From contig NZ_CP136759.1 in the NCBI RefSeq assembly GCF_032931615.1, positions 2,890,086 through 2,954,085 of the forward strand: DNA of 64,000 nucleotides, written 5' to 3'. The translations under genes and the position numbers were made by a program. Under the pieces are notes generated by a model. That model ran no database searches, had not been told where the DNA came from, and was given only the letters and a program-made list of their open reading frames with translations. This document shows, piece by piece, positions 14,328 to 23,048 of the stretch (position 1 is the first letter of the stretch; every line of letters starts with the position of its first letter). The stretch is from Palleronia sp. LCG004 (GTDB taxonomy: Bacteria > Pseudomonadota > Alphaproteobacteria > Rhodobacterales > Rhodobacteraceae).

Positions 14328-14813
14328 ATGTCGGACACCCGGATTCCTTCGCAGATGACGACCGCGCCGCTCTATTCCCCGGCCGAGAGATCGCGCCGCG
14401 ACGCCACCAGATGGACACTGGTCCAGGGGATCCTCGCCCCCGTGCAGTTCCTGGTATTTCTCGTCTCGCTCGCGCTCGTCGTGCACTATCTCTGGACGGG
14501 CGAGGGGTATCAGGCCGCGACGCTGTCGGTCGTGGTCAAGACGCTGGTCCTCTATCTCATCATGGTGACCGGCGCGATCTGGGAGAAGGTCGTCTTCGGC
14601 CAGTACCTTCTCGCTCCGGCCTTCTTCTGGGAGGACATGGTGAGCTTCGCGGTCATCGCGCTTCATTCCCTCTATCTCTTCGCGCTCATGACGCATGCGT
14701 TTCCGCCGGGCGCGCTGATGGCGACCGCGCTCGCCGCCTATGCGCTCTATGTCGTCAACGCGGCGCAGTTCGTGCTGAAGTTGCGCCGCGCGCGGCTCGG
14801 GGGTGGGGCATGA
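14328..14813 (+). CDS. bchF: 3-vinyl bacteriochlorophyllide hydratase
   Basis: 161 residues. BchF hydrates the C3 vinyl group on the way to bacteriochlorophyll a. The protein is a small integral membrane enzyme: four hydrophobic helices are visible, starting with [20 protein letters not shown], and [20 protein letters not shown] and [19 protein letters not shown] are family-typical. ATG 14328 follows the two PpsR sites, and the gene is the first of the long bch-puh operon. Its stop overlaps the bchN start as ATGA. Confidence 0.95.
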
Positions 14814-16093
14814 GCGACCTGCCGCCGCCCCCCGCCCGCGGCTGCGGCCAGGCCCCCGTCCTGAAGGAGCGGGGCCAGCGCGAGGTCTTCTGCGGACTGA
14901 CCGGCATCATCTGGCTGCATCGCAAGATGCAGGACGCGTTCTTCCTGGTCGTGGGATCGCGCACCTGCGCGCATCTGCTGCAATCGGCCGCCGGCGTGAT
15001 GATCTTCGCCGAGCCGCGATTCGCGACTGCCATCCTCGAGGAAAGCGATCTCGCCGGCATGGCCGACGCCCAGGACGAGCTCGACCGCGAGGTCGCCCGC
15101 CTGCTGGAGCGGCGGCCGGACATCCGCCAGCTCTTCCTCGTCGGGTCCTGCCCGTCGGAAGTCATCAAGCTGGACTTGTCGCGCGCCGCCGAGAGGTTGA
15201 GCCGCGAACACGCGCCGCATGTCCGCGTGCTGAGCTATTCGGGATCGGGGATCGAGACGACCTTCACCGAGGGCGAGGATACCTGCCTCGCCTCGATGGT
15301 GCCTGCCCTGCCCGAGACCGAAGCCGAGGAGCTTCTGGTCGTCGGCGCGCTGCCGGACGTGGTCGAGGATCAGATGCTGGCGCTGCTGTCGGCGATGGGA
15401 ATCGATCGCGTGCGCTGCCTGCCCGCGCGGCGCGCCGACGACATTCCGCATGTCGGACCGAAGACGCGCGTGGCGCTGGTCCAGCCCTTCCTGGGCGAGA
15501 CGCTCGGCGCGCTCACGCGGCGCGGCGCACGCCACATTCCCGCGCCGCTGCCCTTCGGCGAAGAGGGGACGACCGCCTGGCTTGCCGCGATCGCGCGCGA
15601 GATGGGCATCGACGCCGAGACCTTCGCCCGCGTCACCGATGCGCCGCGCGACCGGGCGCGTCGCGCCATCGCGGCGGCGACCACGACGCTCAGCGGCAAG
15701 CGCATCTTCTTCTTTCCTGACAGTCAGCTGGAGATCCCGCTCGCGCGGTTCCTGACCCGCGAATGCGGGATGGAGGCGATCGAGGTCGGGTCCCCCTATA
15801 TCCACCGCGACATCGTGGGTCCGGATCTGGACCTGCTCCCCGCGGGGCCGGTGATTTCCGAGGGGCAGGATGTCGATCTGCAACTCGACCGGGCCCGCGC
15901 GGCGCGACCCGACCTCACGGTCTGCGGCCTCGGTCTCGCCAATCCGCTGGAGGCCGAGGGGCTGGCGACGAAATGGGCGATCGAGCTCGTCTTCACGCCG
16001 GTGCATTTCTACGAGCAGGCGGGCGACCTTGCGCAGCTCTTCGCGCGGCCGCTGCGCCGCCGCGAGGCACTGAGACTGGAGGCCGCGGAATGA
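14810..16093 (+). CDS. bchN: Dark-operative protochlorophyllide reductase subunit N
   Basis: 427 residues. BchN pairs with BchB in the NifDK-like heterotetramer that reduces ring D of protochlorophyllide without light. The three cysteine ligands of the NB cluster are visible in [20 protein letters not shown] and [10 protein letters not shown]. Length is normal. The start overlaps bchF by ATGA. The stop itself contains an ATG (16090) that begins a 17-codon reading frame leading to bchB. Confidence 0.96.
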
Positions 16094-16143
16094 CCTCCTG
16101 CTTCATCTGTCCGAAAATACTCACGGCGCGAGGCCGGACATGA
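16090..16143 (+). CDS. 17-codon mini-ORF bridging bchN and bchB
   Basis: ATG at 16090 overlaps the bchN stop (ATGA), and the frame ([17 protein letters not shown]) ends in a TGA that overlaps the bchB start (ATGA at 16140). It contains the dispersed repeat copy at 16101-16122. No own ribosome site is evident. A real function of the peptide is unlikely; it may keep ribosomes moving from bchN to bchB. It could also be chance. Confidence 0.35.
16101..16122 (-). repeat. Dispersed repeat copy A in the bchN-bchB gap
   Basis: Read on the minus strand it contains GTATTTTCGGACAGATGAAG, one mismatch from the copy in the bchH-bchL gap and closely similar to the copy inside bchB. The orientation is opposite to those two. 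Elements of this kind are common between genes of Rhodobacteraceae. Confidence 0.8.
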
Positions 16144-21374: not shown

Positions 21375-22291
21375 GCCCCAGAGACGAGGTTTCGACCCTG
21401 CGCGCCGCCGCCGGCGTTCCGCGATTGGGAGAGGACGGAGAAGGATCGGTCCAGGTCCATCAGGACATGAACCTGGCGATCGAGGGGGCCAAGGTCTTCT
21501 CGGTCTACGGCAAGGGCGGGATCGGCAAGTCGACCACGTCGAGCAACCTGTCGGCCGCCTTCGCCAAGATGGGCAAGCGCGTGCTGCAGATCGGTTGCGA
21601 CCCCAAGCACGACAGCACCTTCACCCTGACCGGCAAGCTGCAGCCGACGGTGATCGACATCCTCAAGGAGGTCGATTTCCACGCCGAGGAGCTGCGCCCC
21701 GAGGATTTCGTGACCGAGGGCTGGGGCGGCGTGCAATGCGTCGAGGCGGGCGGACCACCCGCGGGCACCGGCTGCGGCGGCTATGTCGTGGGCCAGACCG
21801 TCAAGCTTCTGAAGCAGCACCACATGCTCGAGGATACCGATGTGGTGATCTTCGACGTGCTGGGCGACGTGGTCTGCGGCGGTTTCGCGGCGCCGCTGCA
21901 GCATGCCGACCGGGCGGTGATCGTCACGGCCAACGATTTCGACAGCATCTACGCGATGAACCGGATCATCGCGGCGGTGCAGGCCAAGGCCAAGAATTAC
22001 GGTGTCAGACTGGCGGGATGCATCGCCAACCGCTCGAAGGATACCGACGAGGTCGATCGTTATTGCCGGACGGTCGGATTCGACCGGATCGCGCATATGC
22101 CCGATATCGACGCGATCAGGCGGTCGCGGCTGAAGAAGAAGACGCTGTTCGAGATGCCCGACGAGGAGGATATCGTGCTGGCGCGGGCCGAGTATATCCG
22201 GCTGGCCGAACGGCTTTTTGCGGGGACGGAGCCGCTCGCTCCCGCGCCGCTGCCCGATCGCGAGATCTTCGAGCTTTTGGGGTTCGATTGA
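21371..22291 (+). CDS. bchL: Dark-operative protochlorophyllide reductase ATP-binding subunit L
   Basis: 306 residues. BchL is the NifH-like homodimeric ATPase that feeds electrons to BchNB. The P-loop [10 protein letters not shown] is at about residues 47-56 and switch regions read [16 protein letters not shown] and [11 protein letters not shown]. The two cysteines that hold the shared 4Fe-4S cluster are in [14 protein letters not shown] and [10 protein letters not shown]. Length and termini are normal. An AAGGA precedes ATG 21371. Its stop overlaps by one base the ATG of a mini-ORF (TGATG) leading to bchM. Confidence 0.97.
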
Positions 22292-22371
22292 TGCGGCCCG
22301 CCGCCTTCCTCTCGCGGCGTGCCTCGGGCCCGATCCGGGGCGTGGGCCCGTTCCGGGAGGGCCCGGCATGA
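22291..22371 (+). CDS. 26-codon mini-ORF bridging bchL and bchM
   Basis: Begins in the bchL stop (TGATG) and ends in ATGA with the bchM start. The peptide starts [13 protein letters not shown]. Its DNA carries GGGCCC repeats around the bchM ribosome site (GGGAGG). It is the third gap of this operon with the same end-to-end arrangement; the peptide has no recognisable feature. Confidence 0.3.
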   Translation: MRPAAFLSRRASGPIRGVGPFREGPA

Positions 22372-23048
22372 GCTACGAGGCGACGCGTTCGCGGGTCGAG
22401 ACCTATTTCGACCGGACCGCCACGGATGTCTGGGCGCGGCTGACCAGCGACGCGCCGGTCAGCGGCATCCGCCGGACCGTGCGCGCGGGGCGCGACCGGA
22501 TGCGCGCGGTGATGCTGTCGCGGCTGCCGCAGGATCTGAACGGAATGCGTGTGCTCGACGCGGGTTGCGGCGCGGGACAGATGAGCGTCGCACTGGCCGA
22601 GCGGGGGGCCCGCGTCATGGCCGTCGATATCTCGCCCGCGCTAATCGAGGTGGCACGGGAGCGGTTGCCGGCGCATCTGCAGGGTAACGTGACGTTCCGG
22701 GCGGGCGACATGCTCGACCCCGCGCTCGGGGATTTCGACCACGTGGTCGCGATGGACAGCCTCATCTATTACGACGCGGCCGAGATCGGATCGGCGCTCG
22801 CCGCGCTGGGCGCGCGGGTGCGGGGCCGGATCGTGCTGACCGTCCCGCCGCGCACGACGATGCTGATGGCGATGTGGGGGGCGGGGCGGCTTTTCCCGCG
22901 CTCCGACCGCTCGCCGGTGATGGTGCCGCAGCGCACCGAGGCGCTTGCGAGGGCCGCGCGCCGGGCCGGTGCGCTCGGCAATCTGTCGGAGATCGAGCGG
23001 GTCAATTCGGGTTTCTACATTTCGACCTGCCTGGAATACTCGTCATGA
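22368..23048 (+). CDS. bchM: Magnesium-protoporphyrin O-methyltransferase
   Basis: 226 residues. BchM transfers a methyl group from S-adenosylmethionine to the C13 propionate of Mg-protoporphyrin IX. The SAM-binding motif I is VLDAGCGAGQMSVALAERGA near residue 65, motif II/III FDHVVAMDSLIYY, and the conserved C-terminal SGFYISTCLEYS is present. Length is normal. The stop overlaps lhaA as ATGA, so the translational chain continues. The product feeds the aerobic cyclase AcsF encoded downstream. Confidence 0.95.
   Translation: MSYEATRSRVETYFDRTATDVWARLTSDAPVSGIRRTVRAGRDRMRAVMLSRLPQDLNGMRVLDAGCGAGQMSVALAERGARVMAVDISPALIEVARERLPAHLQGNVTFRAGDMLDPALGDFDHVVAMDSLIYYDAAEIGSALAALGARVRGRIVLTVPPRTTMLMAMWGAGRLFPRSDRSPVMVPQRTEALARAARRAGALGNLSEIERVNSGFYISTCLEYSS

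Follow-up and report, generated by a model that had tools for sequence, protein, structure and literature searches.

Can genes in a packed operon stay coupled in translation when DNA has come to lie between them, and do the short open reading frames (ORFs) found in such gaps have a part in it? The question is raised by the bch operon in a stretch of 64,000 nucleotides (nt) from Palleronia sp. LCG004 (contig NZ_CP136759.1, forward strand, 2,890,086 to 2,954,085), called the window here. A sequence-only reading had claimed that mini-ORFs close three gaps of this operon exactly, and had inferred that repeats had entered a coupled operon in which only insertions keeping an open frame were retained. 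Comparison with related loci led to the result that the frame of these mini-ORFs is conserved and their peptide is not, and this pattern makes it very probable that they are termination-reinitiation relay ORFs, kept by selection for coupling.

Anatomy of the operon in the window

The genes bchF, bchN, bchB, bchH, bchL, bchM and lhaA all lie on the plus strand. The coordinates confirmed the overlaps that had been read from the sequence (bchF-bchN and bchM-lhaA 4 nt each, ATGA; bchB-bchH 11 nt), and the three gaps between the other neighbours (bchN-bchB 46 nt, bchH-bchL 106 nt, bchL-bchM 76 nt) proved to be bridged from stop to start as described, each mini-ORF opening on the upstream stop and closing as ATGA on the downstream start. 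The features are as follows, in window positions.

14810..16093, plus strand: bchN; 4-nt start-on-stop overlap with bchF (ATGA); NCBIfam DPOR_bchN
16090..16143, plus strand: putative relay mini-ORF 1, bchN to bchB, 17 codons; ATGA at both ends
16101..16124, minus strand: dispersed-repeat core in the bchN-bchB gap, 3 mismatches; contig C1:2906186-2906209; part of an inverted-repeat pair
16140..17732, plus strand: bchB; NCBIfam DPOR_BchB
17532..17555, plus strand: dispersed-repeat core in a variable linker encoded within bchB; from the core search
17722..21264, plus strand: bchH; 11-nt overlap with bchB; NCBIfam BchH
21261..21374, plus strand: putative relay mini-ORF 2, bchH to bchL, 37 codons; ATGA at both ends
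21318..21341, plus strand: dispersed-repeat core in the bchH-bchL gap; contig C1:2911403-2911426
21371..22291, plus strand: bchL; NCBIfam DPOR_bchL
22291..22371, plus strand: putative relay mini-ORF 3, bchL to bchM, 26 codons from ATG; TGATG start, ATGA end
22368..23048, plus strand: bchM; NCBIfam BchM-ChlM
23045..24472, plus strand: lhaA (PucC family); PF03209; start overlaps the bchM stop by 4 nt

The upstream stops lie at 16091-16093 (bchN), 21262-21264 (bchH) and 22289-22291 (bchL), and the downstream starts at 16140 (bchB), 21371 (bchL) and 22368 (bchM). At both ends of all three mini-ORFs a start codon shares bases with the stop before it (-4 or -1), and every mini-ORF end falls at +4 on the downstream start. 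The bchL-bchM mini-ORF starts in the TGATG manner with a 1-nt overlap, and an in-frame TTG is found at 22288. All three gap lengths are 1 mod 3, as must be the case when an overlap of 4 or 1 nt occurs twice in succession. The chain of overlaps ends after lhaA: at lhaA-puhA (12 nt), puhB-puhC (10 nt) and acsF-puhE (22 nt) no start codon lies on the stop, and the frame at puhA-puhB stops 2 nt short of the downstream start. The names BchN, BchB, BchH, BchL and BchM agree with NCBIfam, and BchF and the PucC-family LhaA with Pfam; names of photosynthesis-cluster genes beyond bch were assigned from gene order and Pfam/NCBIfam matches. The block bchFNBHLM-lhaA-puhABC has been reported as conserved, in a paper whose main text contains neither 'overlap' nor 'intergenic' (PMC3176799). 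An Rfam scan of the whole window at the gathering score gave no matches.

Frame and length of the gaps across relatives

Genome contigs were searched with BchL, and of 582 confirmed loci the best 80 were retained, so that this set represents the nearest relatives by BchL. A BchB search of 60 kin genomes, with matches in 22, added 18 stretches; one was discarded because it was probably a duplicate. This gave 98 loci including the window, each junction being present in only part of them. A start codon sharing bases with the upstream stop was termed a launch codon, and a junction was counted as strictly bridged when the relay from the launch codon ended exactly on the downstream start (-4 or -1). 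The two other frames served as controls and were scored like the relay frame, relay and control frames alike being allowed to end on an in-frame start upstream of the picked one. The start picked for L153, and perhaps those for L042, L053 and L068, may be wrong, and these loci were retained in the counts.

The strongest single fact comes from bchN-bchB, because there the bchN stop and the bchB frame set the gap length modulo 3 and leave the analyst no choice. Among 90 loci the two genes overlap directly (4 or 1 nt) in 57, are bridged in 31 and are separated by 3-4 nt after a TAG in the remaining 2. All gaps of at least 5 nt (31/31, window included) were strictly bridged and 1 mod 3, with 14 different lengths from 34 to 112 nt and 0/31 matches in each control frame. 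The relay ended at +4 on the independently picked bchB start in every case, and most inserts have ATGA at both ends. The chance odds amount to log10 (1/3)^31 = -14.8, and the log10 product of the stop-free probabilities to -8.1, both figures ignoring relatedness. That three of three gaps are bridged in the window had been called notable; weak on its own, the observation gains its force from these relatives, which exclude chance.

At bchH-bchL a direct overlap was seen in 0/96 loci, and for this reason the gap there may be old, with a length that varies in frame. A launch codon is present in 79/96 loci, and 66 of these 79 were strictly bridged over gaps of 10-157 nt (window included), with 0/79 and 2/79 strict matches in the control frames. 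The relay landed on the independently picked start in 63 of the 66 and on an upstream in-frame start in the other three (L047, L048, L050). Two further loci (L061, L073) carry a two-step relay, in which the first mini-ORF ends on ATGA at the repeat end and the second reaches bchL; their gaps are 0 mod 3, as a chain of two ORFs predicts. Launch codon and frame are associated: 68/76 rows with a launch codon are in frame versus 4/17 without (Fisher p 1.3e-7, 93 rows). Where the launch codon is lacking (17 loci), the gaps measure 10-62 nt, none longer, versus up to 157 nt when bridged; their lengths fall 6, 4 and 7 times on 0, 1 and 2 mod 3, with strict matches in 2/17 for the relay frame and in 5 and 4 for the controls. 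Random frames and frequent stops, which the sequence-only reading had named as evidence against itself in a comparison across Rhodobacteraceae, were thus not seen at either junction.

The bchL-bchM junction is direct in 79/96 loci, among them the nearest relative (L143, 1-nt overlap), and bridged in 5/96 (gaps of 58-94 nt). The other 12 comprise nine loci with gaps of 0-13 nt and L020, L029 and L051; in L051 the gap is 117 nt long and the relay ends 11 nt past the start. Short direct repeats are visible in the bchL-bchM gaps of L020 and L029. Direct joining prevails at bchF-bchN (85/88) and bchM-lhaA (93/94), and bchB-bchH overlaps in 89/93 loci, with a short bridged gap in 3 and an unbridged one in 1. 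Further along the cluster, the putative acsF-puhE junction is direct in 19/56 loci, and 13/23 of its launch-bearing gaps of at least 15 nt were strictly bridged when TTG and GTG starts were allowed; of such gaps, 3/7 were bridged at puhA-puhB and 0/17 at the junction tentatively assigned to hemA and a cytochrome gene.

Mapped on a tree with 94 rows, the bchN-bchB junction switches at least 17 times between having an insert and lacking one, and within the 31 rows that have one the gap length changes at least 21 times, all lengths being 1 mod 3. At bchH-bchL the gap length changes at least 41 times among the bridged rows, with 28 distinct values, again all 1 mod 3. When same-genus relatives were aligned, they differed either by 18 nt or by small indels (2 and 1 nt) that sum to three. 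The peptide showed no such constraint. In ten close pairs at bchH-bchL, substitutions are spread over the codon positions as 42/42/44 and 73/87 changed codons are non-synonymous; in three pairs at bchN-bchB the numbers are 10, 11 and 4, with 16/18 changed codons non-synonymous, and the 31 bchN-bchB peptides vary widely in length and sequence.

The proposed relay ORFs and the alternatives

In the proposed mechanism a ribosome ending a bch gene would restart on the start codon overlapping the stop, cross the gap along a short ORF of arbitrary sequence, end on ATGA at the next start and restart there. The mostly direct bchN-bchB and bchL-bchM junctions and the short-gapped bchH-bchL junction would have acquired DNA, in many cases a dispersed repeat of Rhodobacterales. 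Versions keeping the frame open would have survived because, as we propose, reinitiation does not span tens of untranslated bases. Ribosomes would accordingly translate the mini-ORFs, and selection would see reinitiation and not only RNA melting or transcript protection. The gap DNA presumably arrived by insertion, gain of the insert in some lineages and its precise loss in others being indistinguishable here. In one study of E. coli and Haloferax gene pairs, termination-reinitiation coupling was reported to disappear largely or entirely at about 20-38 nt (PMC10666635), and the bchN-bchB inserts, with gaps of at least 34 nt, would therefore be expected to cut coupling unless translated through. 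In the bridged loci the region of the bchB start (-15 to +3) is predicted to be mostly paired (mean unpaired 0.36, n=31) and the Shine-Dalgarno-like match of bchB is at most 4 nt long in 22/31, so that bchB would depend on the relay. Programmed frameshifting was set aside by argument, as it would need no launch codon.

Several results weigh against the relay ORFs, or against their being a general rule. The bridged bchH-bchL loci all have a Shine-Dalgarno-like match of at least 4 nt, so that coupling need not be obligatory there. Among the 13 launch-bearing bchH-bchL relays that are not strictly bridged, 7 overrun the start by 13-17 nt, and overruns of 40 nt (L042) and 28 nt (L068) were found as well; the relay is broken in L149 (52 nt) and falls short in L153, perhaps owing to a wrong start. 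With a lax landing window (chain end -8 to +20 of the start), the relay frame at this junction scored 75/79 and the controls 45/79 and 15/79; since the controls score high too, this measure was dropped, and the strict one alone discriminates. After correction for kinship, pairing launch codon with frame in 10 independent pairs gave a median sign-test p of 0.07 (range 0.008-0.45), and the corrected association at bchH-bchL is only suggestive. The bchL-bchM gaps of L020 and L029 (95 and 75 nt after TAG) are unbridged; that frame-preserving insertions were retained is supported, and the word 'only' in the sequence-only reading was too strong. Its picture of entry into a coupled operon fits bchN-bchB and bchL-bchM, which are mostly direct, and may not hold for bchH-bchL, which is direct nowhere. 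Moreover, the junction from lhaA to the next gene (puhA) is direct in 0/82 loci and yet 9/19 of its launch-bearing gaps of at least 15 nt are bridged, for which reason bridging is not cleanly tied to ancestral overlap.

Outside the cluster, genomes were scanned with a home-made gene caller whose starts are rough (those of bchB and bchL were misplaced). In 864 kb of the window's own genome, the relay frame of launch-bearing gaps of 20-200 nt (n=57) met a start 16 times and the two controls combined 8 times (p 0.0009); the three bch gaps are among the 16, as are one bridged gap of 1 nt and one gap with a putative tRNA-like stretch. ATG-to-ATG bridging of gaps of 30-200 nt was found in 5/16 cases in this genome, 2/7 in G008, 3/7 in G047 and 0/6 in G044, the bridged gap being as short as 4 nt in one G008 match and 13 nt in one G047 match. 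With bch left out, an ATG start was reached from an ATG launch in 2/13 gaps of 30-200 nt in the window's own genome, which speaks against generality: the bch operon stands out, and the genome at large does not obey the bridging rule. As a side observation, positions 400001-800000 of G047 (L228-L247; another family of the class) contain a 97-nt gap bridged ATGA to ATGA, and its insert contains a palindrome resembling a different dispersed repeat.

The alternative that survives best is that ribosome traffic in the gap is selected, for melting a hairpin at the next start or for protection from Rho, and not reinitiation as such. The mostly paired bchB start region with its weak Shine-Dalgarno-like matches would suit it, and the gaps of the window are predicted to fold stably; RNA unfolding is also listed beside reinitiation as an open model in a review (PMC12548453). 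Hairpin z-scores of the gaps are weak (means -1.36 and -0.91). Coverage or melting alone would permit other end points than the exact landing (-4 or -1) seen in 31/31 and 66/79 loci, and this exactness speaks for reinitiation over melting or Rho protection. We therefore consider traffic as such unlikely, though still a serious competitor. It overlaps with the relay reading, and this overlap, together with the bridged and never direct lhaA junction, is why relay ORFs are called very probable and nothing stronger.

The frame could further be a by-product of entry, if a mobile repeat with an open frame of fitting length had duplicated ATGA on insertion and no selection had followed. ATGA at both ends of most bchN-bchB inserts is what a 4-bp duplication would leave, and a repeat is indeed at hand. 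It lies in two of the three window gaps, as had been noted from the sequence; it is on the minus strand in bchN-bchB and on the plus strand in bchH-bchL. Its core of about 24 nt has 9 copies in the genome (up to 3 mismatches), three of them in the bch operon (reverse in the bchN-bchB gap, forward in the bchH-bchL gap and forward inside bchB); the others lie in gaps of several kinds, one between convergent genes, and one inside another gene. A generic repeat search of the window returned mostly codon-level similarity, the useful match being the inverted pair 16100-16128 / 17528-17556. Across loci the strict core was recognised in 15/31 bchN-bchB inserts (14 reverse, 1 in both orientations; 16 without core) and in 23/60 bchH-bchL gaps of at least 34 nt (22 forward, 1 reverse; 37 without core), by a pattern that overlooks degenerate copies, the one in the window's own bchN-bchB gap among them. 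The orientation of a recognised core is thus nearly fixed by the junction, which would suit a by-product of entry. Repeats as the entering DNA, an element of the sequence-only reading, can be recognised in these gaps and not in the rest. About half or more of the gaps being without a strictly recognisable core argues against a by-product, as do the many lengths (14 for bchN-bchB inserts, 28 for bridged bchH-bchL gaps), the same-genus differences of 18 nt or of 2 and 1 nt totalling three, and the occurrence of the repeat within genes and in gaps that no relay bridges strictly from launch to start. We regard this explanation as improbable.

Beside these gaps, the copy inside bchB (17532-17555) is read as SI.GQMK, in the same frame as in the bchH-bchL mini-ORF, and a strict core is found in the last third of bchB in 16/94 loci. 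A copy at C1:2196975-2196998 (L183) of the same genome lies within a long called gene. Another at C1:2777-2800 (L179), near the contig start, is in an 82-nt gap between codirectional genes, where a TTG lies on the upstream stop, the length is 1 mod 3 and the relay frame ends 22 nt past the next start. In literature searches no listed title or abstract opening named this repeat, which is no proof of its being unpublished.

Bridging ORFs as genes of small proteins, their frame kept for a functional peptide, would show a frame kept while length varies, as in any coding sequence; the even spread of substitutions over codon positions, the mostly non-synonymous changes and the wide divergence of the 31 bchN-bchB peptides make this very improbable. 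Promoters or other signals for the next gene, with the open frame incidental, have a precedent in a MIRU-bearing gap of another bacterium for which promoter activity was reported (PMC4213456), and leave 31/31 gaps in one frame without a stop so plainly unexplained that we give them hardly any credence. The same holds for one ancestral bridged gap inherited by chance and common descent: close kin such as L141 and L142 do share inserts, and the at least 17 changes of state and 21 of length at bchN-bchB kept the frame all the same, so that selection is needed anyway.

Comparison with known systems

Literature searches, judged mostly from titles and abstracts, led to no report of relay ORFs in this operon or group, and no direct paper was found in searches on coupling in this operon or on Rhodobacter ribosome profiling. 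New aspects seem to be the host group, the repeated occurrence of bridging at a single junction, the many kinds of DNA that do it, the relays in two steps and a comparison across species that points to constraint on frame alone. A broader statement would be that operon spacers can be under reading-frame-only selection, with unannotated, sequence-free relay ORFs, single or in series, that couple genes across inserts and let packed operons absorb repeats; this is a real possibility that we stop just short of favouring. If it is true, many operon gaps now counted as uncoupled are in fact coupled. The present case also cautions that coupling can be misjudged from intergenic distance alone. Frame-conserved ORFs free of sequence constraint would resemble noise to gene finders that rely on peptide conservation. 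A single junction that some species have as a direct overlap and others have filled, with only the frame preserved, offers a natural experiment on coupling, by which the need for reinitiation in a native operon and the distance a terminated ribosome moves become testable.

The closest parallel are the MIRU repeats of mycobacteria, which are described as inserted at start codons with their own ORF coupled by a -4 nt overlap (PMC12548453, citing Supply et al. 1997), and such coupling was suggested there to let the insertion pass with little effect (PMC12548453). The principle is the same here, as in two of the three window gaps a repeat is present and its ORF overlaps with the stop before it and the start after it. 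The bacteria differ, and so, as far as known, does the repeat; moreover, the bridging DNA here is diverse in length and sequence, members of a whole family are affected at the same junction, two loci run two successive mini-ORFs and the frame constraint extends across species. As far as known, MIRU have one orientation relative to the genes, whereas the orientation here varies with the junction (reverse in bchN-bchB, forward in bchH-bchL). The copy within bchB recalls the Rickettsia palindromic elements, repeats that are tolerated in frame within protein genes.

Termination-reinitiation at ATGA and TGATG gene overlaps was reportedly described by Huber et al. 2019, and the same overlap geometry is found here twice per gap. 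In the study of such pairs cited above, gaps of tens of nt are treated as uncoupled (PMC10666635). Relay ORFs would couple some of them. A last likeness is to short upstream ORFs that may serve only to supply the next start with a ribosome, of which iraD is said to be an example. Delivery of ribosomes by such ORFs has been described (PMC12548453); the short ORF here differs in that it would be fed by the upstream gene and form the middle link of a chain, and not its leader.

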